Source: a virus
Length of the DNA: 22,990 nt
Virus record (IMG/VR): IMGVR_UViG_3300020471_001086
Location: 1-22,990 of that record
Reading direction: 5' to 3' (one strand)
The translations under genes and the position numbers were made by a program. Position 1 is the stretch's first letter; each line of letters opens with the position of its first letter. The notes below the pieces were generated by a model, which was not told the DNA's origin, searched no databases, and saw only the letters and a list, made by a program, of their open reading frames with translations. Positions 1 through 18,629 of this stretch are shown here, piece after piece.

Positions 1-376
1 GCCATCGATCAAATATTCTATTCATCACTTCTTCCTGACGATAGTGGGGGAAGTCAATATCGACATCAGGTAGGTCATCTCTGTTTGGATTTAAGAATCG
101 TGCCACGGGTATTCCCCACTGCACAGGATCTACGTCTGTTATGCCAAGTAGATAGCAGACAAGTGATGAGCCAGCACTACCGCGAGTCATATGAGGTATG
201 TCTCTGGTTATTGCTAGTATATCACATATTTGAATGAAGTAGTCTACGAAACGTAGTCTAAGGATGATTTGAGTTTCTTCGGCGAGCCTTTGCGTGTATT
301 CTTCTGTGCCTGGACATTGCCTAATAAATCTATCGTACAGCCTAGTTATGTCGTTTAGTTCTTTATCTTTTTTCAT
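1..376 (-). CDS. C-family (DnaE-like) DNA polymerase, N-terminal part, cut by window edge
   Basis: The first 125 codons of a gene that continues past position 1. Residues about 25-109 align by eye with the start of the bacterial DNA polymerase III alpha palm: a helical stretch, then RGSAGSSLVCYLLGITDVDP (from residue 65), then RFLNP and PDVDIDF (103-109). The GSxxGS loop contacts the incoming nucleotide in DnaE, and the two aspartates of PDxD are the first two of the three catalytic metal ligands. The protein begins directly before the palm, so the PHP domain of cellular DnaE is absent here. The ATG at 376 is preceded in frame by a TAG. It lies downstream of helicase gp41 and is separated from it by a 72-base gap holding a late-type promoter and a triple repeat. 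The family call is firm. Whether the full gene is a complete polymerase cannot be seen. Confidence 0.85.
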   Translation of the reverse strand, partial: MKKDKELNDITRLYDRFIRQCPGTEEYTQRLAEETQIILRLRFVDYFIQICDILAITRDIPHMTRGSAGSSLVCYLLGITDVDPVQWGIPVARFLNPNRDDLPDVDIDFPHYRQEEVMNRIFDRW

Positions 377-448: not shown

Positions 449-1885
449 TTATTGATCTTCGTCTGAATGCAACTCATTTAGTAGTTGTCTAAGTTTACCA
501 CCCTCTACTGTGCCTTTAATTTTGCCCACAGTATCTCCTTTGGTTGGATCCGGAACCCCCGGTCTTGCATCTTTAGGTGTGTCGGGGACTACTTTAGACT
601 TCTGTTTCAATGAATCGTATATAGTACTTCTCTGTTTGTCAAACTGTTTATATTCAGGATCGTCTGCTAAATCTCTTATTCTTAAACTATCAACATCAAA
701 CTCTAGGTCTACTTTTTGTCCAACACCGCTTGAACTTCTAGTTTTCATAAATTGTATCTGATATCGACCACGTTCTTTCATTGCTCTACTTGTAAAAATA
801 CCAATTACGTTGTCCGCTGTTTGTATCTTAGATAAACCTCCTGCTATGTGAGAATGATCAAATTCTATTTCTTCTACACTTGCTCTATTCAATTGTGATG
901 CAGTTGCCAACAACATTTGTGATTCTACTGCAAAGTTTCTTATTTCTTCTGATACATATTTGTCTTTTATAAACAAGTCTGCTGGACTGATACGTTTGCT
1001 TTTTGGCATCATCAAATCCAAATAATCAATCAATATACAATCAATTTTCTTTTTAGTTTTTAGTTCTAATTCTTTTATATAAGTTTTAATATCCAAAATT
1101 GTGCTACCACTTGGCATATACTTGATGTGCATCTGCCCGGATTTTTTAGCCATCATCTTAACTTTCATCTCAACATTATCTATTTCGGGAAATACTTTTT
1201 TAGTTGGAATGTTAGTCATCATGGCATCAAGTCTCATCGCAGTAAGTTCTTCACTTAACTCAAAACTTATGTAAACGGTATTCAAGCCAGTGGTTGCCCA
1301 ATTCACTGCAAGATTCTGTAAAAATAAACTTTTACCTGCGCCTGATCCACCTGCAAAAATGTTTAGTTCACCTCGGTTAAATCCACCGAACAGTTTCTTG
1401 TCAATGTTTGGCCAACCTGTGCTGACTTGTCCATTGGAGTTTTTAAGTCTCTCCAATCTACCTTTCGGGTCTTCAAAGTAGTCTGTACCAAGATCTTTCG
1501 TCAGTCCAACACTTACCGCGGCCTTAACCATATCCTCAACAGGAGCATAATCTCCTTTTTCTAGTAAGTCTGCTGACTGTAATATTGCACGTTCTAGTGC
1601 TTTGTGTCTTGAAAACGTTTCAAATTCGTCCAACAGCCAATTGAAGTGACTTGGATCTAAATCTTTTGCTGATTTTAATTTTATTTCATGCTTGGCATTA
1701 ACCTGTTCTACATCAGGCATTACCTTATATTCTTCCATATAGTCTTTAATAAATTTTGCAATTGGTTGCAATTTACGATCAAAAGATTCAGGCTTGAATA
1801 TATTTTGTGCCCTAGCAAATGATTCAGCATCTGCCAACATCATTTCAATATATAATTTTTGTACGTCGAATGTATATTCAGCCAT
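449..1885 (-). CDS. 41: Replicative DNA helicase, T4 gp41 / DnaB family
   Basis: A hexameric 5'-3' helicase that unwinds the fork and, with primase gp61, forms the T4-type primosome. The N-terminal ~130 residues are helical, as in DnaB-type proteins. The RecA-like motor follows: Walker A GGSGAGKS at 179-186, the conserved glutamate in FELSEE near 210, Walker B ILIDYLD at 284-290, and a TASQLNR sensor motif at 328-334. The length of 478 aa matches T4 gp41 (475 aa). The C-terminal ~60 residues are charged and proline-rich, as expected of a flexible tail. The start codon overlaps the stop of the upstream coiled-coil gene by one base (TAATG), so the two are probably translationally coupled. Confidence 0.93.
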   Translation of the reverse strand: MAEYTFDVQKLYIEMMLADAESFARAQNIFKPESFDRKLQPIAKFIKDYMEEYKVMPDVEQVNAKHEIKLKSAKDLDPSHFNWLLDEFETFSRHKALERAILQSADLLEKGDYAPVEDMVKAAVSVGLTKDLGTDYFEDPKGRLERLKNSNGQVSTGWPNIDKKLFGGFNRGELNIFAGGSGAGKSLFLQNLAVNWATTGLNTVYISFELSEELTAMRLDAMMTNIPTKKVFPEIDNVEMKVKMMAKKSGQMHIKYMPSGSTILDIKTYIKELELKTKKKIDCILIDYLDLMMPKSKRISPADLFIKDKYVSEEIRNFAVESQMLLATASQLNRASVEEIEFDHSHIAGGLSKIQTADNVIGIFTSRAMKERGRYQIQFMKTRSSSGVGQKVDLEFDVDSLRIRDLADDPEYKQFDKQRSTIYDSLKQKSKVVPDTPKDARPGVPDPTKGDTVGKIKGTVEGGKLRQLLNELHSDEDQ

Positions 1886-2044: not shown

Positions 2045-2539
2045 TTAATCCGTAAACTTCAATATTATTTTATCACCTTGTATCTGTTCTCTCCACCATT
2101 CAGGTGGTTTCACGCAAACGTGAGAATTAACTTCTTCGTTAGAGTTTGGTACTTTTAATTTTTGTTTAGCAAGTCTAGGACAAACACTTATATACAACCA
2201 ACCTTGTGTAAGGTCTTTCAGTTGTTGTACGATTCTAGGTATGTCCTCTTCCGGTATATGCTCCAACACATCAGTACAAATTACTAAATCAAATTTACCT
2301 GTTGGTTCGTTGCTGTATTCTGGTACCGCTGGATCGTATAGTGTAGCATTCCAATCTTTTTGATGATAATGTGCTTTACCGCAACCATAATCTAATATTG
2401 TCTTGATACCTTGTTGCTTTATCAAGTCATTGATTGCGTCTATATGATGATCACGTAAATTTGTGCCACGCCATGTATTAGGATCTTGGTGTGTTTGTTT
2501 TGCCATTTCTAAATACAGTTCGTATCTATTCTTATCCAT
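2045..2539 (-). CDS. Class I SAM-dependent methyltransferase
   Basis: A 164-residue Rossmann-fold methyltransferase. Motif I is ILDYGCG at 48-54, an acidic residue at the end of strand 2 is D69 (LYDP), and the later motif FDLVICTDVLEHI begins at 83. This last form is typical of the Methyltransf_11/UbiE-like group and not of DNA methylases, since no NPPY or DPPY motif is seen. The substrate is unknown; small molecule, glycan and protein are all possible. It overlaps the downstream end of the primase gene by 8 bases and sits between primase and helicase, but nothing in the protein links it to replication. Confidence 0.8.
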   Translation of the reverse strand: MDKNRYELYLEMAKQTHQDPNTWRGTNLRDHHIDAINDLIKQQGIKTILDYGCGKAHYHQKDWNATLYDPAVPEYSNEPTGKFDLVICTDVLEHIPEEDIPRIVQQLKDLTQGWLYISVCPRLAKQKLKVPNSNEEVNSHVCVKPPEWWREQIQGDKIILKFTD

Positions 2540-3545
2540 ACATTTTTCTCTTTAAATCTATTTTTAACTTATTAGATTCTGTTGAATTCAATATAGTTTG
2601 TATTGTAAACAATCTTCCATATTTTAACACAGCATCAGCCACGTCGTCAACACCTTCATCCCATTCCGGAAAAGCAACATTCCAACCAAATTCTACTGCT
2701 TGGTTAATTAACTTTTCTCCCGGAGCATCTCTATCTGGAACAACAATTACTTGGCGGTTTAAGCCGTCTATAAGGTCTCGCTGTACGTCATTTACCTCTG
2801 AACCCAGTATGCTTACTCCAGAAACGGATATAGCATCAAATGGTCCTTCAGTAACAATAACAAATTTTCTAGACCAGTCTTGTGCATCCATATTGAAAAC
2901 ATATCCCGGTTGCACATCGGTATAATATTTCACTTTGTCAGACTCCACAAATATTCTGCCTGTGTAGCCGACAACATCACCTTTCCAATAAAATGGAATT
3001 AACAAACGTTTGTCCATATCCCAAGTAGACACAGGAGAGTATAGGAAGTCATACCAATCAGCACCTATGCCTCGTTGTTTTAAATAATTTAAAAGTGAAT
3101 CAATTTTTTTCCATTGTGGTTCAGTCAAATCTTTGGCCACATATTTCTCTAACCACGTTTCTAGTTTATGTGCATTTTTAGGAAGTTCTTTCTTTTTAAA
3201 TGCAACAAATTTCTTTTTTTCTATTTTAGTATCTGCTTCCTCATGACGCATGGCTTCTATTGCTAATTTTTTAATTGTATCATCTGCAATTCCAATCCAA
3301 CTCATGAACTGCCTCATTTTAAAATTTAATTTTCTTCCAATTATATAGGATGCCTTATAGCCACAGTTGAAACAATGATAAGATAATGTTCCGTCAGCAC
3401 TTGTCATTATGCCTCCACGTTTTTTCTTATCTTGTGTTTCTCCGTTGTGTACACAACAAGGAGCATTGAATGATATCCACCCAGAAGGAGTTTTCTTCCG
3501 GCCGCCCGGCAGAGATGTCAGGATAGTAGACTGGATCAGGTTCAT
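2532..3545 (-). CDS. 61: DNA primase, T4 gp61 / DnaG family
   Basis: Makes RNA primers for lagging-strand synthesis and works with gp41. The N-terminus has a zinc-ribbon with C30/C31 and H33 followed by C58-x2-C61 (HCFNCGYK). A central linker leads to a TOPRIM domain with the catalytic glutamate E233 in VTEGPFDAIS and the metal-binding pair D271/D273 in VVPDRDAPG. DVAD at 301-304 follows. The length of 337 aa equals that usually seen for gp61 (about 340). The start at 3545 leaves a 10-base gap to the upstream virion gene, while the 3' end overlaps the methyltransferase gene by 8 bases. Confidence 0.9.
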   Translation of the reverse strand: MNLIQSTILTSLPGGRKKTPSGWISFNAPCCVHNGETQDKKKRGGIMTSADGTLSYHCFNCGYKASYIIGRKLNFKMRQFMSWIGIADDTIKKLAIEAMRHEEADTKIEKKKFVAFKKKELPKNAHKLETWLEKYVAKDLTEPQWKKIDSLLNYLKQRGIGADWYDFLYSPVSTWDMDKRLLIPFYWKGDVVGYTGRIFVESDKVKYYTDVQPGYVFNMDAQDWSRKFVIVTEGPFDAISVSGVSILGSEVNDVQRDLIDGLNRQVIVVPDRDAPGEKLINQAVEFGWNVAFPEWDEGVDDVADAVLKYGRLFTIQTILNSTESNKLKIDLKRKMYG

Positions 3546-4394: not shown

Positions 4395-4769
4395 ATGAAT
4401 GAAATTTTTAACACACTAAAGGACAAATTTCCTTTTCTAACACTCATAAGAAAGGGTGATTTGGAGTTTGTTGGTATTATACAAAACCAAGATAACAACG
4501 TGATCAGTTTTTATGATTATGGCAGAATCATGCAACCGCAAGATAAGATGAGGTTTTTAAAGTGTGGAGAAATTTGGTGGAACGAATCCAATAGAAAAAT
4601 CCCAATAAACATATTCTTAAAAGGTGAATTCAGATATTTTAGAACAACACTTGTTTCGTTGGCATCTAAAGACGTTGAAATAGTGCATGGACCAACTGTA
4701 AGACTGTCTGAAATTTCAAAGAAACGGGTAAAAAGAAGAACTATTCAATTAGTAAGAAGACCTATTTAA
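4395..4769 (+). CDS. Conserved marine T4-like phage protein, function unknown
   Basis: A 124-residue protein of mixed alpha/beta character. It has a central segment GEIWWNESNRKIPINIFLKG (about 66-85) and a strongly basic C-terminal segment (KKRVKRRTIQLVRRP) that could bind nucleic acid. The pattern recalls hypothetical proteins in cyanophages and related marine myoviruses; this is from memory and unverified. It is transcribed against its neighbours, and its last 8 bases overlap the end of the convergent basic mini-protein gene. The start at 4395 follows a weak purine stretch (TAGG). Confidence 0.7.
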   Translation: MNEIFNTLKDKFPFLTLIRKGDLEFVGIIQNQDNNVISFYDYGRIMQPQDKMRFLKCGEIWWNESNRKIPINIFLKGEFRYFRTTLVSLASKDVEIVHGPTVRLSEISKKRVKRRTIQLVRRPI

Positions 4770-4929
4770 TTTTAGTACGTTGTGTACTGTTAATCCCACA
4801 TACTCTTTCAACATATTCGGTTAATGGATTATCTTTTTGATATCCATAATATTCGCTACGTGAATAGTTACGGGAGGCTTTTTTACTAGTTTTTTTGGAT
4901 TTTCTTTTCTTAGTTTTTTGATGTTGCAT
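4762..4929 (-). CDS. Small lysine-rich protein of unknown function
   Basis: A 55-residue protein starting at the ATG at 4929. It could be extended to a GTG at 4947, but the ATG is preferred. The first ~25 residues are almost all Lys, Arg, Ser and Thr (KTKKRKSKKTSKK), followed by an aromatic stretch (SEYYGYQKDN). It overlaps the 3' end of the polymerase fragment by 20 bases in another frame and meets a plus-strand gene tail to tail. The basic N-terminus suggests nucleic-acid binding, but no family is recognised. Because it is short and overlapping, some doubt remains that it is expressed. Confidence 0.5.
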   Translation of the reverse strand: MQHQKTKKRKSKKTSKKASRNYSRSEYYGYQKDNPLTEYVERVCGINSTQRTKIK

Positions 4930-5500
4930 CAAAACTATATTTAGCACGAGACATCAAATTCATCTGCACAACGATTGCTTGAGCATAAGCAACAGCATGG
5001 GATTTTTTGAAAAAGTATGATCCGTCTGTGGGACGTACCCAAACTTCTTTCAGTATATCTATCCAATCCTTGTGCATCAAGTGCCTTTTAGCAGGACGTA
5101 TTATTGCTAACACAGCCGCAAGTTGTTCGATGTTTTTAGGTTCTAGTTTTGATACTATATTAAAATGTCCATTTAAATGGAAAAGTTTATCAACAATAGT
5201 TGCATCTTTGAGCATTTCCCAATCAGGCTCTTTTATCATTAATTCTACAAGTTCTTGCTCTGACTTGATATCTTTATAGATACTAACGTTCAAGCAATCA
5301 ATTTTGAAATATCCTCTATCTTCTGCTTTTTTATAATCCAAACTTGAATGCCCTGTAATTGGGTGTTCAGGAACTGCATGAAAGTACACACCTGTTTTAT
5401 GTTTTTCAACTTTGTCATCTTTAATAATAGAAGCAGGAGTGTGTTTGAATAATTTCAATACTCCATCTCTATCAAAAAAGTCTATATCAACATCAGGCAT
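4910..5500 (-). CDS. Reduced C-family (DnaE-like) polymerase palm/fingers fragment
   Basis: A 196-residue protein that begins exactly at the catalytic motif: MPDVDIDF (1-8). Further blocks align in order with DnaE. KHKTGV (33-38) matches the KHAGGV segment. GYFKIDCLNVS (63-73) matches LVKFDFLGL and supplies the third catalytic aspartate, D68. LFHLNGHFNIVSKLEP (106-121) matches VFQLESRGMKDLIKRLQP. AAVLAIIRP (128-136) matches ALVALFRP. FFKKSHAVAYAQA (163-175) matches GFNKSHSAAYAL. Relative to DnaE it lacks the PHP domain, the GSxxGS loop, most of the ~150 residues between the catalytic aspartates, part of the fingers and everything after them. The ATG overlaps the stop of the 74-aa gene upstream (TAATG). 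It could be half of a split enzyme, an accessory subunit or a decayed paralogue. The family call rests on ordered motifs; activity is unknown. Confidence 0.75.
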   Translation of the reverse strand: MPDVDIDFFDRDGVLKLFKHTPASIIKDDKVEKHKTGVYFHAVPEHPITGHSSLDYKKAEDRGYFKIDCLNVSIYKDIKSEQELVELMIKEPDWEMLKDATIVDKLFHLNGHFNIVSKLEPKNIEQLAAVLAIIRPAKRHLMHKDWIDILKEVWVRPTDGSYFFKKSHAVAYAQAIVVQMNLMSRAKYSFDATSKN

Positions 5501-5724
5501 TAATGCATTTTCCTTTTATTATAATTTTCAAAATCTTTTCTTGCACCCGGTTGCAATAAATCTAAAACATCAAGTAGTTTCTTATAGGCCAACGAATTAG
5601 TCATATTTGCAGTCATTTCCGGCATAACAACCTTACCAACACTTCCGTCTTTTTTAATTACGACAATACAGTCGCCCGGCTCAATTTGCATTCCGTCTGC
5701 TATTTCACTTTCAATCCTACTCAA
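5500..5724 (-). CDS. Conserved small protein of unknown function (TTG start)
   Basis: A 74-residue protein beginning M(TTG)SRIESEIADGMQIEPGD. A beta-rich first half (DCIVVIKKDGSVGKVVMPEM) is followed by a helical second half ending LLDVLDLLQPGARKDFENYN. It recalls small hypothetical proteins of marine T4-like phages; this is not checked. The TTG at 5724 is chosen because a strong Shine-Dalgarno sequence lies six bases before it. An in-frame TTG ten codons earlier has no such site. The stop overlaps the polymerase-fragment start by one base, which suggests coupled expression with it. Confidence 0.75.
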   Translation of the reverse strand: MSRIESEIADGMQIEPGDCIVVIKKDGSVGKVVMPEMTANMTNSLAYKKLLDVLDLLQPGARKDFENYNKRKMH

Positions 5725-6403
5725 TTTTTGCCTCCTTGGCTGTTTCCTGTACAAACAAATAATCTGCTGGATAACTTTTAAATTTACTTGCCCAAAACTC
5801 CGGAATTATAAATTTTTGTGCCATTTGTAATTGTTCATCACTAAATGATTGTAGCATTTTTTTTCCTGCAGAGCAACCAAGTATTAACCATGGAGACATT
5901 TTTCCCTGCTGTATGTGTGCCACAACACGTGTCGTATTTGCAAGTCTAAAGTAATCGCTCCATTGTGCGTGTTGTTCTTCTGCCCAATCCATCATTGTTG
6001 CTATGGATCTTCTCAATGCGGCTTCGACCGGTTCTCTTTTAAGTGTGTCTATGAGATAAGTTTCGTACATTGTATCATTTGCCCAATGGTCAAGTTTCAC
6101 TTGCGACAATATAACAAAGTCTATATATTTTTCAGGATATAATGGGTTGATGTGCATTATGTATCTGCCAAATTTTACAAATGCATTGTAGTACGGTGAA
6201 TCACAAAACTGTTCATAGGTTTTTGGTTTATGATTTTTTTGATGTATTTCATAAAACCTTTGGAACACCATGAAAGCATTTTGCACCCATTTCTCATTTT
6301 TTTGTAGGTATCTTCTTTTTGGTTCACACATATGAACTTGTAATGTTCTTTCTCTAGTAAACTCTTTGCCACAGTATGGACACTTAAATTTAATTGATTC
6401 CAT
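5717..6403 (-). CDS. Zinc-finger protein, conserved in marine T4-like phages, function unknown
   Basis: A 228-residue protein with an N-terminal C2HC finger: C8, C11, H24 and C26 in CPYCGKEFTRERTLQVHMC. The rest is mostly helical and aromatic, with a segment SPYYNAFVKFGRYIMHINPL near 69-88 and no enzymatic motif that I recognise. The finger suggests DNA, RNA or protein binding. The gene overlaps the gp62-like gene upstream by 14 bases and carries the ribosome-binding site of the next gene in its last codons. Its place among replication genes suggests a role in replication or transcription, but this is inference. Confidence 0.75.
   Translation of the reverse strand: MESIKFKCPYCGKEFTRERTLQVHMCEPKRRYLQKNEKWVQNAFMVFQRFYEIHQKNHKPKTYEQFCDSPYYNAFVKFGRYIMHINPLYPEKYIDFVILSQVKLDHWANDTMYETYLIDTLKREPVEAALRRSIATMMDWAEEQHAQWSDYFRLANTTRVVAHIQQGKMSPWLILGCSAGKKMLQSFSDEQLQMAQKFIIPEFWASKFKSYPADYLFVQETAKEAKIE
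5731..5737 (-). promoter_or_regulatory. Shine-Dalgarno AAGGAGG setting a TTG start
   Basis: AAGGAGG on the minus strand, six bases upstream of TTG 5724 and lying inside the end of the zinc-finger gene. It is much stronger than the ribosome-binding sites of most neighbours, which suggests it compensates for the weak TTG start codon. Confidence 0.75.
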
Positions 6404-6833
6404 GTGACTCCATTAACTCCTCTAGTTCCCCATCCGTAATAATTTTATCCAGTACTTCTAAATCTGACTCCTTCATGTTTGGATATAGTTGCATCAATTG
6501 TTTCATAGACTTGTTAGCAACCTTTTTCATTGGCTTTATCCATGGATGAAATTGTCTTGTCTCTGTGCCACACATCGCAGTAAGTATCCAACAAAGTTTT
6601 TTGTGTTTGCTTGATAACGTGAACAAATGTTTATTAACGCATTCGTTAACCATTTCTATGTAATGTTCAACAAAAAATGGATCTTTGTTCGCTATGCTTG
6701 AAGCATATCTCATCAACATAAATGGAGAATATAATGATTTTTCATGATCATCTATTCTGTCATAATAATCTTTGTTACGATAGTCTACTGCTTGTAGTCC
6801 ACTTTTAAGTTCGAAAAATTTTCGCTTCGTCAT
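6390..6833 (-). CDS. 62: Probable clamp-loader small subunit, gp62-like
   Basis: A 147-residue helical protein. The pattern SLYSPFMLMRYASSI (33-47), then a helix with VNECVNKHLFTL, then HKKLCWILTAMCG and HPWIKPMKK matches the layout of marine T4-like gp62: PFxxxRxLS, xNxxxxHLxxLxxK, and a conserved Trp-Lys near the end of the core. In T4, gp62 with the ATPase gp44 loads the gp45 sliding clamp. Neither gp44 nor gp45 is in the window, so the usual 62-44-45 neighbourhood is not there to confirm it. The gene overlaps both neighbours (29 and 14 bases). The call rests on pattern similarity from memory and could be wrong. Confidence 0.55.
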   Translation of the reverse strand: MTKRKFFELKSGLQAVDYRNKDYYDRIDDHEKSLYSPFMLMRYASSIANKDPFFVEHYIEMVNECVNKHLFTLSSKHKKLCWILTAMCGTETRQFHPWIKPMKKVANKSMKQLMQLYPNMKESDLEVLDKIITDGELEELMESHGIN

Positions 6834-7050
6834 ACTTTAATCCAAATAATGTTGCACTCTTGGCATCAACAAAATGTAATTTTAACTTATTATTCATTTG
6901 TGTCATACCGGAAAGTTTTTTATTAAACTTTTCTTTTACCAACCAATCAAAAAATTTAACTGGCCAATCTTTGTCCATCCAAACATAAGCACCCTCTATT
7001 TTCATTATTGGTGCTTTCAACCTAACAGTTTTTTTACCAGCAAGAGCCAT
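6805..7050 (-). CDS. Small conserved protein of unknown function
   Basis: An 81-residue basic protein (MALAGKKTVRLKAPIMKIEG). It has a Trp-rich middle (AYVWMDKDWPVKFFDWLV) and a segment KLSGMTQMNNKLKLHFVD that would fit a small alpha/beta fold. It overlaps the upstream 167-aa gene by 17 bases and the gp62-like gene by 29 bases, so it is part of the same translationally coupled run. It is not the RegA repressor, to which I see no resemblance. No function can be given. Confidence 0.7.
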   Translation of the reverse strand: MALAGKKTVRLKAPIMKIEGAYVWMDKDWPVKFFDWLVKEKFNKKLSGMTQMNNKLKLHFVDAKSATLFGLKYDEAKIFRT

Positions 7051-7537
7051 AATCTACTTGTTCACATTGTCTTGAAATATCTTTAACAAAATAAGCACAC
7101 GTTGGTTTAGGTCCATCGCTTAAAGGCACAGCAAGTAGTTGACCCGATTTAATTTTAGGAAAATACCATTTCACTTCTGTGTATATGTCAACAATATCAA
7201 TTGGAAAAAATTCAGGTTTATGGCTCGATAAAGGATTAAATGTAAATGCATCGAAGCCTCTATCGTTTAAACTTGTTATTGGTAGTACGTGCATTTCTTG
7301 TTGTCCCCATTCACCTATAAGCATCTTCCAATCCAATGGCATTTTTATTTTATGTTCTCCTATTGTAAGAACTGCCGCAGGTGCATTAAAACTTTCAAGA
7401 AATATTAATGGTATGTAAAAGAAGTCCGGCTCTTCAGGATTTGAGTTATCTAACACGGCAAACCGTAATTTTTCATCCACGTATTCTGGAATCTTTTCTA
7501 ATGTATAAGATGCGTTATCTAGTGTAAGGATTTTCAT
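7034..7537 (-). CDS. Conserved T4-like phage protein of unknown function, next to uvsW
   Basis: A 167-residue protein with beta-strand-rich sequence and the conserved-looking blocks YIPLIFLESFNAPAAVLTIG (41-60), HKIKMPLDW, LPITSLNDRGFDAFTFNPL and CAYFVKDISRQCE near the C-terminus. It resembles a protein I have seen beside replication genes in marine T4-like phages, with no assigned role. It overlaps the uvsW 3' end by 23 bases. No catalytic motif, membrane segment or signal peptide is visible. Confidence 0.75.
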   Translation of the reverse strand: MKILTLDNASYTLEKIPEYVDEKLRFAVLDNSNPEEPDFFYIPLIFLESFNAPAAVLTIGEHKIKMPLDWKMLIGEWGQQEMHVLPITSLNDRGFDAFTFNPLSSHKPEFFPIDIVDIYTEVKWYFPKIKSGQLLAVPLSDGPKPTCAYFVKDISRQCEQVDYGSCW

Positions 7538-8981
7538 AATCTATTTTCTCTATATTATAAGGATAATTTGCCTCTTTGTAAAACTTTTTTCTTTGTGTAA
7601 GGTGTCTTTTTGCAAACTTACAACTGCTAGTTATATCCCAAATTTGCACGTGATCTTTGTCCTGTGCTTTACGTATTCCTCTACCTATACTTTGAATTAC
7701 ACGGACAAAACTTTTGCCAGGCTCAAGTAAAACCAAATTAAAAATACGAGGAATGTTAATACCAACACTAGCCACTCCGTATGTTGCAATAATAATTTTA
7801 CTTTTTGCAGTAGATACTTCATCGTAATGTTCCTTCCTGTCCTCTGTTTTTGTTGCTCCGGATATAAACACTGAATCTTTTATTTTCTTTTCTAATAACT
7901 GTCCTGCAGATATTCTGTCAACAAGTATCAAAGTATTCCCTGAACTTGCTATGGTATCTATTGTTTTAGCAATCCAAGTCATTCTTGTATTGTCTGTTGT
8001 AAGCCATTTTAATTCTTCTTGATAAGTTTTAAATTCTGGATGGTCTTGTGTTTGCAGAACATTAACATGACAATTTGCAAGTACACCTTTGTCTTGCAAT
8101 TCTTTTGCAGGAATCCTATTTGTTACTTCTCCTATAGATACCTTTATTCCCATAAATTCGTAATCTGCTTTTGGCACAGTTCCGGTAAGTCCCCAACGTA
8201 TGCCACAATGTGCAAAAGGACCTGTAAGTAATCTTTTCAACACATCCGCTTTGGCCATATGCACCTCGTCAATAATCACAGTATTAATTCCTTGAATAAA
8301 TTCTTTAAACTCTGTTGTGTGTTCGTCTTTTGCTTTTTTGTCAAGCACGTTTAGTGATTGCCAAGTTGCAATAGTATTGTATCGACCAATTTCTTTTCTA
8401 TCTCCATAGTACACTCCCGTATCTAAATTACAAGCAAGAAAGTCTTCTTCGGTTTGCGTAACAAGACTTTTGTTTGGAACTATTGTGATTGTACGTCCAT
8501 ATGGTTCGACCAATTGGCACAATGCCGCTGTAATAATAGTTTTACCTGCACCTGTGGCAATCTCTTGAATAGATTGTGGTGCTTCGATAAACTTATTAAT
8601 TGTTTCAACTTGATAATCACGTAACTCGATAGGTTGTCCTGCACATGGATGATTTTCCGGCCAATTTATATTTGAAAGAAAGTTTTTATTGATTGCTTTA
8701 AATTCAAAGTCGTGTTTAGTTCTTCTATCTTCTAGTTCTACATAAACACCGCCATCTTCCAGTATGGGTAATATTTGTTCGACTAAACTTAGATATGTTG
8801 TGCCGCCAAGACCAAAAAAAGCAATCTTGCCATCCCATCTACCCAACTTGACCGCAGGTAAGTGAAACGCATATGGTACTTGATATTTGAATTTGTTGTG
8901 TAAACGTTGCCTCCATTTGAGATCTAAATTCTCAAATTTCACATTGACTTCGTCTTTGATTACCAATTTACATGAACTCAT
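7515..8981 (-). CDS. uvsW: UvsW-type superfamily 2 DNA helicase
   Basis: UvsW unwinds branched DNA, regresses stalled forks and switches T4 from origin- to recombination-dependent replication. The 488-residue protein has a UvsW-like N-terminal domain (1-115), then DYQVETI (122-128), Walker A ATGAGKT (142-148), the DEVH box (238-241), TGT (266-268) and helicase motif VI QSIGRGIR (430-437). The length is close to T4 UvsW (503 aa). Its ATG overlaps the stop of the upstream HARP-like gene by four bases (ATGA), so the two proteins are probably made together from the promoter at 10346-10373. Confidence 0.93.
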   Translation of the reverse strand: MSSCKLVIKDEVNVKFENLDLKWRQRLHNKFKYQVPYAFHLPAVKLGRWDGKIAFFGLGGTTYLSLVEQILPILEDGGVYVELEDRRTKHDFEFKAINKNFLSNINWPENHPCAGQPIELRDYQVETINKFIEAPQSIQEIATGAGKTIITAALCQLVEPYGRTITIVPNKSLVTQTEEDFLACNLDTGVYYGDRKEIGRYNTIATWQSLNVLDKKAKDEHTTEFKEFIQGINTVIIDEVHMAKADVLKRLLTGPFAHCGIRWGLTGTVPKADYEFMGIKVSIGEVTNRIPAKELQDKGVLANCHVNVLQTQDHPEFKTYQEELKWLTTDNTRMTWIAKTIDTIASSGNTLILVDRISAGQLLEKKIKDSVFISGATKTEDRKEHYDEVSTAKSKIIIATYGVASVGINIPRIFNLVLLEPGKSFVRVIQSIGRGIRKAQDKDHVQIWDITSSCKFAKRHLTQRKKFYKEANYPYNIEKIDYENPYTR

Positions 8982-11565: not shown

Positions 11566-11756
11566 GACGTGTATGGCTCCATTAATTTGTCAAAATATTT
11601 TTTTGTTATTTGTTTTAATTCCACAGCATCGGCACCGTCTTTATAAAATTGTTTTACATCTTTCATGATCATTTTGTAAGGCATATAACCAAAGTGATAA
11701 GTTTCTGTTTTATTTTTTGTAGTAACTTTTGCTTCATAAAAACAATCTCGTTTCAT
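11562..11756 (-). CDS. Small protein of unknown function in the glycan block
   Basis: A 64-residue protein (MKRDCFYEAKVTTKNKTETY) with a short strand-rich start and a helical, lysine-rich end. No motif or membrane segment is seen. It is held in place by a one-base overlap (TAATG) with the upstream glycosyltransferase stop and a four-base overlap with the MptE-like start, so it is probably translated. The family is not recognised. Confidence 0.65.
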   Translation of the reverse strand: MKRDCFYEAKVTTKNKTETYHFGYMPYKMIMKDVKQFYKDGADAVELKQITKKYFDKLMEPYTS

Positions 11757-12625
11757 TATAGATACCTATCTTTTAACCTTGCTTTTATCCTTTCCCATGG
11801 GATACCCTGTTGTATTTCTTTTTCCCACCATTCTGTATAGGCTAGTTTGTTTGCCCAATTTTTCCTATTTGGCATGGCAGGTGTGTTTATATCAGCAAGA
11901 CTTTCGTTACCAACTTCATAACACAAACTAGATGCTGATACAAAAACAGGAACACCTTCGAGAACAGATTCAATGGCAGGGTTTGATGAATGATTTACAA
12001 CTGCCCATGTTTGTCCTAAAGTTGCTTTAAAGTCTGTATCGTCATACGTTGACCAATCTCGTTTGGGCATTCTAATAAAAACATCTTTAAATTTTTCTGT
12101 GTCAAAACTTATTTGATTTCTCGGATGAGGTCGTACCAATATTGGTCTAGTGGTGTATTTTCTAATTTCAGTAATTTGTTTTTTAATCCATTTACCCATT
12201 TTAGGAAGTCCTATCCATTGTTGACTTGTATCGTGTTGTCCACATAATACAATCATGTCACCACTACTGTTCCACGGTTTCATTTCCTTTTGGAATAAAG
12301 GCCACCTTTTATCATCAAATTCTTGATTGGCAAAATCTGCGTCTCTGTTTATTCCATTGATTCCTATTTTAAAAGTTTCGTTTCTTTTCAATCCACCTAC
12401 TTCTAACACAATTACAGGTCTATTAGTTTTCCTATAGTCTTCCCAAATCTTTCTGTTACCTTCCATTCGTCCACGCCACAACACTGACCAAATTACAGCG
12501 ACATCGGCATTTTTGTTTTCATTGATGTAAACATCATGCCCGTCTTTCTTTAAACTTTCGATGAATGCTTTGAAAATAGGTTTGGAGTTCAAACTTCCGA
12601 ATTCTGGATAACAAGCAATTTGCAT
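11756..12625 (-). CDS. GT-B-like capsule/surface glycosyltransferase, paralogue 1
   Basis: A 289-residue protein resembling capsule-polysaccharide export/biosynthesis (KpsS/CDP-glycerol transferase-like) GT-B proteins. RPHPRN at 165-170 and the C-terminal nucleotide-sugar region NHSSNPAIESVLEGVPVFVS (211-230) are the key blocks. SLADINTPAMPNRKNWANKL (242-261) follows. The same closing arrangement (serine-rich loop, acidic residue, GxPVF, then IETP-like and LAY-like elements) recurs in three other genes of this block. The donor and acceptor sugars are unknown. Both ends overlap neighbours by one base. Confidence 0.7.
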   Translation of the reverse strand: MQIACYPEFGSLNSKPIFKAFIESLKKDGHDVYINENKNADVAVIWSVLWRGRMEGNRKIWEDYRKTNRPVIVLEVGGLKRNETFKIGINGINRDADFANQEFDDKRWPLFQKEMKPWNSSGDMIVLCGQHDTSQQWIGLPKMGKWIKKQITEIRKYTTRPILVRPHPRNQISFDTEKFKDVFIRMPKRDWSTYDDTDFKATLGQTWAVVNHSSNPAIESVLEGVPVFVSASSLCYEVGNESLADINTPAMPNRKNWANKLAYTEWWEKEIQQGIPWERIKARLKDRYL

Positions 12626-13542
12626 TAGTTCCCCTTGTTGCCTTTTGCAACTTTGTTTACAATATCTTCTTTTTGTTTAGGATCAAACTTTACTCCACTA
12701 AATGGATCATAGGATTCTACATTTTTCCAATAGTCTTCTTGACGTTTGACTCTTAAATCACTTGCAGAACTTTTACCTTTAACTTTTCTTTTGCCTTTCA
12801 TGTGGTCTATATATTCGCCTAGTACACTATTAATAAACACATGATGTCCTCTTGCACCAGCACCCTTGCCAATATCTACACCTTCGTTTGGTGCAATTCT
12901 TTTTACAACTTGCCAAAACAAATAACTGTCGTGCCATTCTAATTCCTCAAAAATAGTATCTTTGATATACATATCAGTCCAATAACTCATAAATTCTTTT
13001 ATCTTTGGATGTGTTTTGTTGTAACAGACCCAGCCACATTCGGGATATTTTTCTCCTCTGCCTAAAAAGTTAACAAGTTTATCGCTAGGCAATAATCCTG
13101 TTACAAACTCTGTTGTAATTTTTCTAAAAGTAAATGTATCAGCATCTAACCATAACATATATTCTTCGGGCCATGTTCTAATTGCATGATCAACTGCAAA
13201 CGTTTTGTGTGCAAATCTAACTGCGTCCCATAGGTATGATCCTTTGCCTTTATCTTTATCACCAGCGGCAGGACTACGTTTTACTCCACCGGGTATCTCT
13301 TGTAGTTCACCATTTGCAACAGGATCGTTTTTATGTTTCTCTTTAAACTTAACTAGTTCCGGATTGGCTTCATGTATGTCAACAAATACTACTTTTTCGT
13401 TCTGTAAGTTAGGTTTGTCCCCTTCGTAGTAAGCATATAATTTTACATCGTCCGGCCAAAATTCTATATGGCTTTCGATCATTCTTTGTGCATAAACATT
13501 CCATCTATTAGGAGGAAATGTTGTAACTACGCCTAATTTCAT
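12625..13542 (-). CDS. GT-A-like glycosyltransferase
   Basis: A 305-residue protein starting MKLGVVTTFPPNRWNVYAQR at the ATG at 13542. An ORF extension to 13608 is rejected because it runs into the upstream gene, whose stop overlaps this ATG by one base (TAATG). The DxD motif of GT-A enzymes is D133-A-D135 in YMLWLDADTFTF, which binds the metal and nucleotide-sugar. A tryptophan-rich region with WHDSYLFWQVV and a basic C-terminal segment follow. The likely role is sugar transfer in the glycan block; the sugar is unknown. Confidence 0.7.
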   Translation of the reverse strand: MKLGVVTTFPPNRWNVYAQRMIESHIEFWPDDVKLYAYYEGDKPNLQNEKVVFVDIHEANPELVKFKEKHKNDPVANGELQEIPGGVKRSPAAGDKDKGKGSYLWDAVRFAHKTFAVDHAIRTWPEEYMLWLDADTFTFRKITTEFVTGLLPSDKLVNFLGRGEKYPECGWVCYNKTHPKIKEFMSYWTDMYIKDTIFEELEWHDSYLFWQVVKRIAPNEGVDIGKGAGARGHHVFINSVLGEYIDHMKGKRKVKGKSSASDLRVKRQEDYWKNVESYDPFSGVKFDPKQKEDIVNKVAKGNKGN

Positions 13543-14525
13543 TATAGTCCTAACCTTTCTTTGAATCTTTTGTAAACAGTTCCGTCTCTGATTTCTTGTA
13601 TGCTCCACATCTTATATCCAAGATCATTTAACCATTGAGTACGATCTGGATATTCTGGTGTTTCTATTTTAGTTAAATCTGTGTTTGCTACAGGCCAACA
13701 AATTGCAAGATCTGACGTAACAAAGGTAGGGATACCACGAACGCAGGAATCGACACTGGCAGTAGAATTGTGAGTAACAACAGCATGACAATTAGTTATT
13801 ACATCTTGAAAGTTGAATCTGTAGTACTTTTTCTCGTCACCTGCAAAATGTTTTTGTGTAAATTGCATCTCTATATCTTCGGGAAATTCTTTTCTTCTAT
13901 CATCCATAACTGCTACATGATTTGGATGTGGACGAACAATAAATTTTCTTTTAGTTAATGGTCTTAATTTTTCATAGACACCATTGAACCACTCTACAGG
14001 ATCAAGTTCGTTCATGCTCCAATTATCTTTAGGCTGAAGTACAAATAGTATTGGATCTTCTGGTTTAGATTTTCTCCATTCTTCGTGTTTTACTTTAAAT
14101 TTTTTCTTCATCATTTCCCATCTATCCGATGGACTGTTGTCTGCTAGAAAGTTTCCATCGTTCATGGGTGTGTAAAGTGCTACTCTAAAATGATGATCAG
14201 GACTTGTAGATGTGTTTCCAAAACTTGATAGCACTCCACCGTCAAATGTTATTAACGGAATCTTTTGTGCTCTACATTTATCTGCTAGTTCTCTTCTACG
14301 TCCTTTTGTATGATGCATTTGATTAGATCCACCGTAGCCAAACATAGCACAGATTGGTGCAGTTGGTTCCATCTCGCCTTCGACAGTTGGTCCTGCTCTG
14401 TCTTCGTTTACAATTATAGGTTCGTCGCCTGCCGCCTTGACTCCTTCGGCCAAGTGATAAAGCAACTCCCAACTATTACCACGTTTTCTGTCTTTTACAG
14501 TTCTTCTAAAAATTTCACATTTCAT
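13542..14525 (-). CDS. GT-B-like capsule/surface glycosyltransferase, paralogue 2
   Basis: A 327-residue protein with IVRPHPNHVAV (RPHP 198-201), a histidine/serine block THNSTASVDSCVRGIPTFV (251-269) and a closing segment LTKIETPEYPDRTQWLNDLG (284-303). These match paralogue 1 in order and spacing. The N-terminus includes MFGYGGSNQMHHTKGRRREL, a glycine-rich turn near the expected first Rossmann unit. It overlaps paralogue 3 by 11 bases upstream and the GT-A gene by one base downstream. Confidence 0.7.
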   Translation of the reverse strand: MKCEIFRRTVKDRKRGNSWELLYHLAEGVKAAGDEPIIVNEDRAGPTVEGEMEPTAPICAMFGYGGSNQMHHTKGRRRELADKCRAQKIPLITFDGGVLSSFGNTSTSPDHHFRVALYTPMNDGNFLADNSPSDRWEMMKKKFKVKHEEWRKSKPEDPILFVLQPKDNWSMNELDPVEWFNGVYEKLRPLTKRKFIVRPHPNHVAVMDDRRKEFPEDIEMQFTQKHFAGDEKKYYRFNFQDVITNCHAVVTHNSTASVDSCVRGIPTFVTSDLAICWPVANTDLTKIETPEYPDRTQWLNDLGYKMWSIQEIRDGTVYKRFKERLGL

Positions 14526-15333
14526 TAAGCATTCTCCAGGCAGTTCCGTTTGCCATTTCTTCCATTGTCCAATTATTATATGCTAAATTTGAGAACAAAG
14601 CAACTCTATCTTCGTACTTGGGTGTTTCAATTTTAGAAAAGTCTGTTTCTGCTATTGGTTTGGCCGCACAATTATTACCATCACAAAAAACTGGTACGCC
14701 ATTTGTAAAACTTTCCACCATTGTGTTGCTATTGTAAGTTACACAGGCAAAATATTGACTCCAATCTATTTTTCCTTGATGTGTTGTTGGTTTATCAATT
14801 TTAACTGTTGCTCCAACATGATCTTTTGCAATCGTTGGATTATATGGTTTTTCTCTTATATCAATCTGCCTGTCTGTATTCTTTTTTAGAATTTCTAGTG
14901 TTTTTGATAACCAAAGTTCTTCGTTAAAAAAATTTGCTATTGCATTAGTTGGAGGTAGGACTAAAATTTTCTTGCCATTTTTTTGCCATGGCATAATATT
15001 TCTTGCAAAAAATTTTTCATATCTATCACTTTTAGTATTAGTAAATTTGTTTTGGCAATGAGCATTTTTTGTAATTCTTAACCAATGAGGACTGTCATGT
15101 GCATTAGTAAAGTATCCGTGATCTATAAAATAAAAATCACGTTTTTGTTGTTCACACCATCTATACATTTCTCCGGAGCCGGCAAGTATTCCATACATTG
15201 TTAAATTTTCATTTGGAAGTTCTTTCAAATCTCGAAATTGATATATCTTATTTGGACCAGGTGTGCCTTGCACAAAAGCATCCACATATCTTTGTGTTCT
15301 TGGTTTTGTAGTGTGTATACCTGCTATATTCAT
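14515..15333 (-). CDS. GT-B-like capsule/surface glycosyltransferase, paralogue 3
   Basis: A 272-residue protein closest to paralogue 4 on the plus strand. Both share a HWLRITKN/HYWRICKN block, an SDR-Y/F-(E/D)KF block, a GK-ILV-P block, a TDRxIxxREKP block (153-163 here) and a C-terminal ACVTYNSNTMVESFTNGVPV (196-215 here) ending in FSKIETPKYEDR. The family contains capsule-type transferases. The start overlaps the upstream oxygenase stop by four bases (ATGA). Confidence 0.7.
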   Translation of the reverse strand: MNIAGIHTTKPRTQRYVDAFVQGTPGPNKIYQFRDLKELPNENLTMYGILAGSGEMYRWCEQQKRDFYFIDHGYFTNAHDSPHWLRITKNAHCQNKFTNTKSDRYEKFFARNIMPWQKNGKKILVLPPTNAIANFFNEELWLSKTLEILKKNTDRQIDIREKPYNPTIAKDHVGATVKIDKPTTHQGKIDWSQYFACVTYNSNTMVESFTNGVPVFCDGNNCAAKPIAETDFSKIETPKYEDRVALFSNLAYNNWTMEEMANGTAWRMLNEM

Positions 15334-17176: not shown

Positions 17177-17845
17177 ATGTCAACGATGTTTTCAAATGGT
17201 TGTAGTTTTCTTACCCCTCGTCCAAAAGACGGTGTTGATACTTTTGTTAGTAAGGAGTTAGCACAAAATTATAACAGTGAACTAGTAAATTTAGCCATGG
17301 GAGGCCGGGGCAACAAAAGAATAAGTTTTACAACAAAGTGGTGGTTTGAGTTAGAAAAACCAAAAGATGTTTTTGCTGTTATAGGATGGTCTAGTCAAAT
17401 ACGAAATGATTATATTACCAACGATGGGTGGAAAGCAGGACGTATTGACAGGACTGATTTAACTTGGCGAACATGGAAAACTTCAAACGAATTAAGATGG
17501 CTTACAGGTTTTAAAGGGTGGGACGTTGAAAAAAATCTTATTGCTGATTTTTTAGATAATGTTTTTAATTTACAGAATTATTTCAAAATTAAAAAAATTC
17601 CATACGTAATGTATAATGCTCTTCCCAATAGTGTTGATGATACAATATTAGATTTTGATGTTTTTAAAGAAGCAATAGATATGAAAAGATTTTTTGCTCC
17701 ATCAACAAGTCATTTTGAATTTATACAACAAAACAATTATATAGTCAGTCCAGATGATCCACATCCGTCCAAAGAAGGACATGAAAAATGGGCAAACTCT
17801 CTAAAGGAATTTATAGATGCTAACAATTTACGCACCATCGAGTAA
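17177..17845 (+). CDS. SGNH/GDSL hydrolase-like protein
   Basis: A 222-residue protein. FSNGCSF at 5-11 matches block I of SGNH hydrolases with S10 as the likely nucleophile. NLAMGGRGN (38-46) fits block II with its glycine, GWSSQIRND fits the region of block III, and SPDDPHPSKEGH (191-202) fits block V with D193 and H196 completing the triad. SGNH enzymes often remove or transfer acyl groups on polysaccharides. Together with the adjacent transferases this suggests glycan acyl modification, which is an inference. Translation may begin at 17186 instead. Its 3' end overlaps the next gene by 29 bases. Confidence 0.7.
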   Translation: MSTMFSNGCSFLTPRPKDGVDTFVSKELAQNYNSELVNLAMGGRGNKRISFTTKWWFELEKPKDVFAVIGWSSQIRNDYITNDGWKAGRIDRTDLTWRTWKTSNELRWLTGFKGWDVEKNLIADFLDNVFNLQNYFKIKKIPYVMYNALPNSVDDTILDFDVFKEAIDMKRFFAPSTSHFEFIQQNNYIVSPDDPHPSKEGHEKWANSLKEFIDANNLRTIE

Positions 17846-18629
17846 TCCTAAAAGTAAGGCCTGGGAAGTTTTTAATGGAGTCAAAAACTCGTGGCCCGGA
17901 CAAGTTGTTATCAATGATAATAGTACAGCAACCGAACCTTTATCTAATTCAATGTTTTGGGGTTTTGTAAATAATAATTTAGAATTAATTAAAAAATTAG
18001 AAGCACGACAACAACAATATTGGTTCACAGATACTCCATATTTTGGAAGATTTGACAATAATAATTTAAAACCCGATAATCATTACTGGCGAATTTGTAA
18101 AAATAAAATACACGCAAGTTTTTTTGAAGACTGTAAATCAGATAGATTTGATAAGTTTAATATTAAAATAAAAGCACCAACATTGAACGGAAAACATATT
18201 TTGGTTTGTCCTAGTTCGCCAGGCATTCATGCTTACCTTGGCACACCGGATTGGACAAGCGACACAGTAGAACAACTCAAACGATATACTGACAGGCCTA
18301 TAAAAGTTAGAGAAAAACCTAGAGGGAGAGGAACGTCAGGACCGAGTGAAGCAAAAGTACCTTTAAGCGAGGATTTAAAAGACGCATGGGCCTGTGTAAC
18401 AAGTTGTAGTATTAGTGCCATTGAAGCAGTATGTATGGGCAAACCTGTGTACTGTCATGAGAAAAGTTTTGCTTCAGACATTGGCAATCTTCATTTAGCA
18501 GATATAGAAACACCTGTCTATGCAGATCCAGAACCATGGTTGTATAGTTTAGCCTATCAACAGTTTACGCCTGAAGAATTTTCTAATGGAACTACCATGG
18601 AAACATTGTTGACTTTAGGTCTTCTTTAA
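17817..18629 (+). CDS. GT-B-like capsule/surface glycosyltransferase, paralogue 4 (plus strand)
   Basis: A 270-residue protein related to paralogue 3 along most of its length: HYWRICKNKIH (89-99), SDRFDKF, GKHILVCPSS (125-134), TDRPIKVREKP (158-168), ACVTSCSISAIEAVCMGKPV (192-211), LADIETPVY (227-235) and LYSLAYQQFTPEEFSNGTT (242-260). An AAGGA about ten bases before the ATG could serve as ribosome-binding site. It forms a two-gene plus-strand island with the SGNH-like gene, and its end overlaps the convergent 144-aa gene by 38 bases. Confidence 0.7.
   Translation: MLTIYAPSSNPKSKAWEVFNGVKNSWPGQVVINDNSTATEPLSNSMFWGFVNNNLELIKKLEARQQQYWFTDTPYFGRFDNNNLKPDNHYWRICKNKIHASFFEDCKSDRFDKFNIKIKAPTLNGKHILVCPSSPGIHAYLGTPDWTSDTVEQLKRYTDRPIKVREKPRGRGTSGPSEAKVPLSEDLKDAWACVTSCSISAIEAVCMGKPVYCHEKSFASDIGNLHLADIETPVYADPEPWLYSLAYQQFTPEEFSNGTTMETLLTLGLL

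Follow-up and report, generated by a model that had tools for sequence, protein, structure and literature searches.

A 196-residue viral protein: probable C-terminal half of a minimal C-family DNA polymerase split between two genes

The DNA analyzed here (the window) is the 22,990-nucleotide stretch at positions 1 to 22,990 of the IMG/VR virus record IMGVR_UViG_3300020471_001086. It contains a gene of 196 codons, which we call gene B, whose ATG sits at the catalytic motif of C-family DNA polymerases. A first-pass annotation of the sequence had described a mini C-family polymerase that could be part of a two-piece enzyme, a regulator or a fixed relic.

A short gene with C-family polymerase motifs

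Gene B is an open reading frame on the minus strand (5500..4910) that starts with ATG and has no internal stop codons according to the ORF list and its translation. The catalytic motif PDVDIDF occupies residues 2-8, which confirmed that the 196-codon gene starts at this motif. The ATG shares one base with the stop codon of the upstream reading frame 5754..5500 (TAATG), and AAAGGAAA lies a few bases 5' of the ATG. The 84-residue product of the upstream frame gave no match in a PHROGs profile search.

We compared the motifs of gene B with those of E. coli DnaE. PDVDIDF at residue 2 corresponds to PDFDVDF at 400, KIDCLN at 66 to KFDFLG at 553, LFHLNG at 106 to VFQLES at 608, RP at 135 (IRP from 134) to RP at 639, and FKKSHAVAY at 164 to FNKSHSAAY at 756. 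Because the motifs match in order, D3, D5 and D68 of gene B are equivalent to E. coli D401, D403 and D555, which we take to be the catalytic residues. The earlier claim of three DnaE palm aspartates and fingers blocks in the right order thus holds against E. coli DnaE 400-756, and gene B has the C-family trait of three palm metal-binding aspartates (D3, D5 and D68). The intervals between motifs are shortened. The second and the late aspartate are 63 residues apart in gene B versus 152 in E. coli DnaE, and a further motif interval is 96 residues versus 201. The GS nucleotide loop is absent from the 196-residue sequence and present in a second gene of relatives, gene A. The PHP, thumb and C-terminal clamp-binding domains are likewise missing, the 183 aligned residues spanning E. 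coli 400-781. This segment of E. coli DnaE presumably falls after the N-terminal PHP domain and before the C-terminal domains.

Profile searches, proposed earlier as a check for a DnaE match, assigned gene B clearly to a phage family and weakly to DnaE itself. Gene B matched phrog_11778, annotated "DNA polymerase", with E=9.4e-66 over positions 8-195 of 197, and belongs to this already described family. The Pfam finger domain scored E=0.014, below the cut-off, and the best NCBIfam model E=0.92. An hhalign comparison with the single E. coli DnaE sequence was weak (probability 4%, E=0.0097). Searching PDB sequences with phmmer returned no polymerase for gene B, only MutH at E=0.39.

An AlphaFold2 model of the gene B protein alone (62 sequences) had a mean pLDDT of 90.7. 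In a VIA-align search, the best 16 rows were chains of DNA polymerases, listed as Pol III alpha, PolC or "DNA polymerase", with Z of 6.1-9.6; the next, unrelated row scored 3.4. Model residues 1-189 superposed on E. coli DnaE 400-781 (2hnh) with Z 8.9 and an rmsd of 4.0 over 183 aligned residues. The best 14 Foldseek rows were also polymerase chains, the top one at E=1.7e-3 and none below 0.001. Gene B is therefore predicted to have a C-family palm/fingers fold, and sequence and model together bear out its description as a reduced palm/fingers unit that lacks the GS loop and thumb. Like bacterial DnaE and PolC (E. coli 2hnh, Taq 2hpi/3e0d, Geobacillus PolC 3f2b), gene B combines a predicted palm fold with three aspartates, RP and KSH..Y in the same order. 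Unlike them, it has no PHP domain or thumb, strongly shortened fingers, a GS loop that is off the chain, and a length of 196 residues versus 1,160 in E. coli.

Relatives of gene B were found by tblastn in 63 of 50,697 phage records, all at 80% query coverage or more and all below 60% identity. The phages include Agrobacterium Atu_ph07, Sinorhizobium Phosso, Pseudomonas PA5oct, Klebsiella RaK2, Cronobacter GAP32, Escherichia 121Q, Xanthomonas XacN1, Salicola SCTP-2, a Vibrio phage and two Alishewanella phages. Gene B is also common in environmental viral contigs and occurs in hundreds of those in IMG/VR. A pattern scan of IMG/VR based on the window protein yielded 476 matched stretches, 440 of which were gene B relatives. 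Scans based on more distant members gave at least 550 confirmed relatives among 600 stretches and, in the second, 304 among 448. These scans overlap one another, and 80 loci were kept from each.

An alignment of the window protein with its counterparts from ten named phages, 11 diverse members in all, has 24 invariant columns, including D3, D5, D7, H34, K66, D68, R135, P136, K138, H168 and Y172. We extended the comparison to 253 loci, which represent 202 distinct ORF sequences and in some cases come from the same contig. D3, D5, D7, H34, K66, D68, H168 and Y172 were each kept in 252 of the 253, the single exception at each position being a gap. R135, P136 and K138 were kept in all 253. The aspartates, whose conservation in homologues had been proposed as a check, are thus retained. 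The IMG/VR loci had been fetched by patterns containing the catalytic motifs (gene B) or the GRGSS loop (gene A), so the conservation of these motifs among them is partly by construction. RP, H168/Y172 and the end point of gene A lay outside the patterns. The ten named phages offer a cleaner test of DxDxD conservation because they came from an unfiltered tblastn search, whereas the contig loci were fetched partly by DxDxD.

Among 21 close sequences, 42 of 210 pairs were usable for estimating dN/dS, counting only pairs with dS between 0.1 and 1.5. The median was 0.056 and the maximum 0.127. The boundaries of the gene are similar in distant phages. Gene B is a real gene under strong purifying selection, and since both conservation and dN/dS point in this direction, it reads as a working gene.

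The complementary gene A in named phages and viral contigs

A gene of 169-183 residues, gene A, is present elsewhere in the genome of all ten named phages examined, out of the 63 records with gene B. Searching the ten genomes with the DnaE palm model PF07733 gave one place above the cut-off in each, within profile positions 13-98 of 260 and located in gene A in all ten; GAP32 had a second match below the cut-off. The same search gave no match in three further contigs of 45-87 kb. Gene A carries a GRGS loop in all ten phages, as GRGSS in nine and as GRGSC in Atu_ph07. In each of them, it ends a few residues past the stretch aligned to DnaE RFLN, ahead of the catalytic DxD. Two members that were tested, from Slickus01 and from one contig, matched phrog_11127 (171 positions). 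The gene A profile aligned to E. coli DnaE 208-393 with E=3.8e-9. Active-site residues are thus retained in gene A as well as in gene B.

Contig sequences gave the same picture. A gene A scan of IMG/VR returned at least 579 confirmed relatives among 600 stretches, and 80 loci were kept. All 80 have GRGSS and a stop codon no more than 6 residues beyond the end of the model. Together with the ten named phages, 90 of 90 gene A sequences share a constant split point. A DxDxD-like string occurs in the last 60 residues of two of the 80; the tails YDLDIDEFLK and YDLDIDEFLR fit this pattern and by alignment lie upstream of the catalytic motif. No fusion of gene A to gene B was found with both models among ORFs of at least 100 residues in 333 loci. 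Eight loci were matched by both half-models, and these contain gene B plus, separately, a compact DnaE.

We modeled gene A from one contig locus (L158) with AlphaFold2, obtaining a mean pLDDT of 91.0 (72 sequences). The best 15 VIA-align rows were polymerase chains with Z of 7.7-12.0, and the next, unrelated row scored 2.5. Residues 82-179 of the model superposed on E. coli DnaE 280-395 (2hnh) with Z 10.0 and an rmsd of 2.6 over 98 aligned residues. Foldseek again placed polymerase chains in its best 16 rows, at a modest top E=1.4e-2. With structural matches of 280-395 and 400-781, the predicted folds of gene A and gene B abut on a single DnaE chain, separated by residues 396-399. The DnaE match leaves out roughly the first 76 residues of gene A, most of which are predicted with good confidence (for example, L158:9770-10306).

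Gene A has a neighborhood of its own. Of the 64 loci in which 2.5 kb or more of downstream flank was available, 59 have a clamp-loader gene downstream of gene A, at a median distance of 1.7 kb; the clamp-loader query, taken from PA5oct, corresponds to phrog_168 (E=1.8e-75). A GroES-like gene is near gene A in 74 of 80 loci, and the PA5oct query for it matches phrog_3188 and Cpn10. Among gene A contigs of at least 88 kb, gene B is present in 8 of 16 and absent from the other 8. It is present in all seven gene A contigs of at least 228 kb.

Replication genes and a compact DnaE in the window lineage

Gene B is located in a replication module (Table 1). We searched flanks of 6-12 kb in the ten named phages with the window proteins using phmmer; neighbor genes that were missed may reflect this reach. 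Relatives of the primase are near gene B in seven of the ten phages, of the gp41 helicase in eight and of a virion protein in five. XacN1 and RAS14 matched at the opposite-strand gene only. Slickus01 matched phrog_11758, phrog_11058 (weakly, E=5e-3) and gp41 only. The window also holds UvsX-, UvsY- and single-strand-binding-like genes. A family B polymerase is encoded in all ten named genomes, and none of the ten gave a family A polymerase at E<=0.1.

The convergent phrog_11637 gene directly adjoins gene B in seven of the nine phages that have it, a stable arrangement. One gene separates the two in XacN1 and RAS14.

Table 1. Position and assignment of window features
Feature	Coordinates	Strand	Basis
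Compact DnaE, N-terminal 125 codons, cut by window edge	2..376	-	PF07733, PF17657; full ORF L012:11504-13198
DnaB/gp41-type replicative helicase	449..1885	-	PF03796 E=4.6e-21
Primase-like	2532..3545	-	Toprim_2 below cut-off; matches annotated primases of Phosso, PA5oct, RaK2
124-aa protein, phrog_11637	4395..4769	+	Opposite strand after gene B in 9/10 named phages
Gene B, probable C-terminal half of split minimal C-family DNA polymerase, 196 aa	4910..5500	-	phrog_11778 match, predicted fold, conserved residues
84-aa ORF 5' of gene B, stop overlapping its ATG (TAATG)	5500..5754	-	ORF list, sequence
C2H2 zinc-finger protein, 228 aa, phrog_11058	5717..6403	-	Relative upstream of gene B in 8/10 named phages
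147-aa protein, phrog_11758	6390..6833	-	Relative upstream of gene B in 8/10 named phages
167-aa protein, phrog_11279	7034..7537	-	Relative upstream of gene B in 7/10 named phages
UvsW-type helicase	7515..8981	-	PF04851, PF00271; RaK2 annotation; synteny in 6/10

The gene at positions 1-376 had been suggested as a partner of gene B. It is the start of an intact compact DnaE. The complete gene is found in contig L012 (11504-13198, plus strand), where gene B is 99% identical to that of the window, and it encodes 564 residues with its own GS loop, PDVDIDF and KVDVL. We rejected it as the partner because it is a complete compact DnaE; the partner in relatives is the separate gene of 169-183 residues near a clamp-loader gene. 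The best PHROG match of the compact DnaE is phrog_405. Its Pfam matches at E<=0.01 are PF07733 and PF17657 only, and a PHP domain was not detected among them. Compact phage DnaE of this type resembles gene B in combining a C-family palm and fingers with no detected PHP domain; unlike gene B, it is a single chain of 564 residues with its own GS loop and aspartates. In the window, as in its nearest relative, the compact DnaE gene immediately follows that of the gp41 helicase.

A further check proposed earlier was whether gene B and the gene at 1-376 are kept together. Of 38 window-type loci that extend 4.7 kb or more beyond gene B, at least 12 have the compact DnaE close to it, a lower bound because the reach of the loci varies. 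It is also present in four of six longer window-type contigs (53-91 kb), at 83-90% identity to the L012 protein. It was not found in 26 of the 38 loci within their varying reach.

Neither a set of 18 window-type contigs (22-87 kb) nor a set of six (53-91 kb) yielded gene A; one contig is common to both sets. In each set four contigs gave a match, confined in every case to the compact DnaE. The search also covered nine gene B contigs that are more distantly related and 148-608 kb long. Five of these have gene A, and it was absent from four (280, 290, 246 and 148 kb). The clamp-loader gene was found in none of 20 contigs without gene A or outside the gene A search (the six of 53-91 kb, the four more distant ones that lack gene A, eight more of the 18, and two window-type contigs outside the gene A search). 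The query was shown to find the gene beside gene A in a separate search, with a different program and a smaller database. Because the searched contigs without gene A also lack its companion clamp-loader gene, window-type contigs without gene A are suggested to miss that region of the genome. The phage from which the window derives is inferred to have both gene A and a family B polymerase.

The best tblastn match to the compact DnaE in phage records was in LR756508.1 (L375, 47370-49064), a 484-kb uncultured phage record, with 36% identity over 99% of the protein.

Interpretation and published split polymerases

We consider it probable, from the sequences and models, that gene B specifies the C-terminal chain of a minimal C-family polymerase made of two chains and lacking a thumb, with gene A as its partner, and that this enzyme has an accessory function beside a family B replicase. 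The gene B chain would contribute the three aspartates that bind metal, together with a reduced fingers/template-binding part. The gene A chain (phrog_11127, encoded near the GroES-like and clamp-loader genes) would provide the palm front, including the GRGS loop that holds the nucleotide triphosphate. The two chains would join to make a single active site from both, and once joined would extend DNA in an accessory capacity, in repair, gap filling or the synthesis of one strand. The analysis established both genes, their complementarity, conservation and predicted folds, and the co-occurrence with a family B polymerase in the ten named phages; physical assembly, catalysis and biological role we infer. 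An accessory role is likely because all ten named phages also carry a family B polymerase, and on the same ground a reading of gene B as the main phage replicase is disfavored. Among the options raised by the first-pass annotation, a two-piece enzyme fits best, gene A with its GRGS loop being present in 10 of 10 named genomes. We rejected a stand-alone mini-polymerase as the main reading because the nucleotide loop sits in this complementary gene rather than in gene B. By comparison with its relatives, gene B is half of a putative split enzyme rather than a self-sufficient mini-polymerase.

Several observations count against the split polymerase. A thumbless enzyme would grip DNA poorly, gene A was not found in the window-type contigs searched and is missing from some larger gene B contigs, and 8 of the 16 gene A contigs of at least 88 kb lack gene B. 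In addition, gene B matches E. coli DnaE weakly by profile, and the Foldseek E-values are modest for both halves. Gene B might instead act without gene A in the window lineage, as a partner or regulator of the compact 564-residue DnaE next to gp41. This agrees with the proximity of the two genes in at least 12 of 38 loci and 4 of 6 longer contigs, and with gene A not being found in the contigs that have the compact DnaE. We regard it as improbable. The compact DnaE is complete alone, with GS loop, PDVDIDF and KVDVL, and 26 of the 38 loci keep gene B where it was not found, although their reach varies. The contigs searched that lack gene A also lack its companion clamp-loader gene. Finally, a full-length compact DnaE relative occurs in LR756508, where no free-standing copy of either gene A or gene B was found at E<=0.001.

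The pair could also have kept a C-family fold for another purpose, as a nucleotidyltransferase that is not a polymerase or as a structural or regulatory part of the replisome, without template-directed synthesis. The missing thumb and strongly shortened fingers (motif intervals of 63 and 96 residues, versus 152 and 201 in E. coli) would suit such a function, as would the family B replicase already present in the named relatives. We think there is little chance of this, since retention extends beyond the metal ligands to the GRGS loop in gene A and, in gene B, to RP and H168/Y172 of the fingers. The small size and missing domains of gene B could point to a decaying relic of a former DnaE, an option left over from the earlier annotation. 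A dN/dS of 0.056, catalytic residues in 252 of 253 loci and similar boundaries in distant phages make this very improbable.

If gene A and gene B do form an enzyme, its nucleotide loop and metal-binding aspartates are on different proteins, and to our knowledge it would be the smallest C-family polymerase. Such an enzyme would show which DnaE domains the chemistry can spare and could bear on the origin of C-family polymerases. A more far-reaching version, which we hold to be doubtful, is that the two-chain polymerase has stayed unfused across very distant large phages as a thumbless C-family state that predates fusion, and that in the window lineage it works alongside a second, intact compact C-family polymerase and probably a family B replicase.

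The first-pass annotation was aware of no phage polymerase with such a size and layout. This does not hold, as a split minimal Pol III alpha had been described in group 2.2 jumbo phages, from genome comparison and sequence alone, by Iyer et al. 2021 (PMC7824862); according to that paper, phages with the split version hold no other Pol III domains. We link the two units of this split Pol III alpha to phrog_11127 and phrog_11778, so that both halves are PHROGs families; this link is drawn in the present analysis. Gene B agrees with the C-terminal unit as described there, being a stand-alone protein of ~200 residues that starts at the DxD strand and contains the aspartates and fingers motifs. Because the split enzyme had already been described, the window gene B adds to a known kind. 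As in the accessible description, the C-terminal unit stands alone with Mg2+-binding aspartates and a template-binding part, and in the named relatives the N-terminal NTP-binding unit is far off and a family B polymerase is present. Unlike the phages of that description, the window lineage also has an intact compact DnaE beside gp41 (564 residues; window 2-376, L012 11504-13198), which is a further Pol III protein, and the N-terminal unit was not found in the contigs of this lineage that were searched. Relative to the same accessible text, the constant split point in 90 of 90 sequences, the abutting predicted folds, the clamp-loader linkage and a lineage with an additional compact DnaE are new.

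Other reports touch on the same genes, as far as their accessible text goes. The truncated 172-residue Pol III alpha in the paper on phage CBB (PMC5259590) fits gene A, and CBB is also matched by the gene A query. The Atu_ph07 paper (PMC6102473) lists a Pol III alpha subunit, and a paper on a Sinorhizobium jumbo phage (PMC11242549) mentions two Pol III subunits like those of Atu_ph07. In a survey of marine jumbo phages (PMC9123017), PF07733 occurs in 51.9% of one cluster. Judged by title and the start of the abstract, none of the matches listed in our literature search is experimental work on the gene A/gene B pair; many subscription journals are outside its coverage. Two further "split" polymerases were not counted as gene A/gene B systems, on the basis of the text available for each. 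The one reported for phage MIJ3 belongs to family B and contains an intein, and for those of an OM43 phage the text does not name a family.

Elsewhere in the window, four ORFs appear paralogue-like by eye: 11756-12625, 13542-14525, 14515-15333 (-) and 17817-18629 (+). Each has a similar stretch (SNPAIESVLEGVPVF, STASVDSCVRGIPTF, NSNTMVESFTNGVPVF and SISAIEAVCMGKPVY, respectively), after which I-x-TP and another segment common to all four come near the C-terminus.
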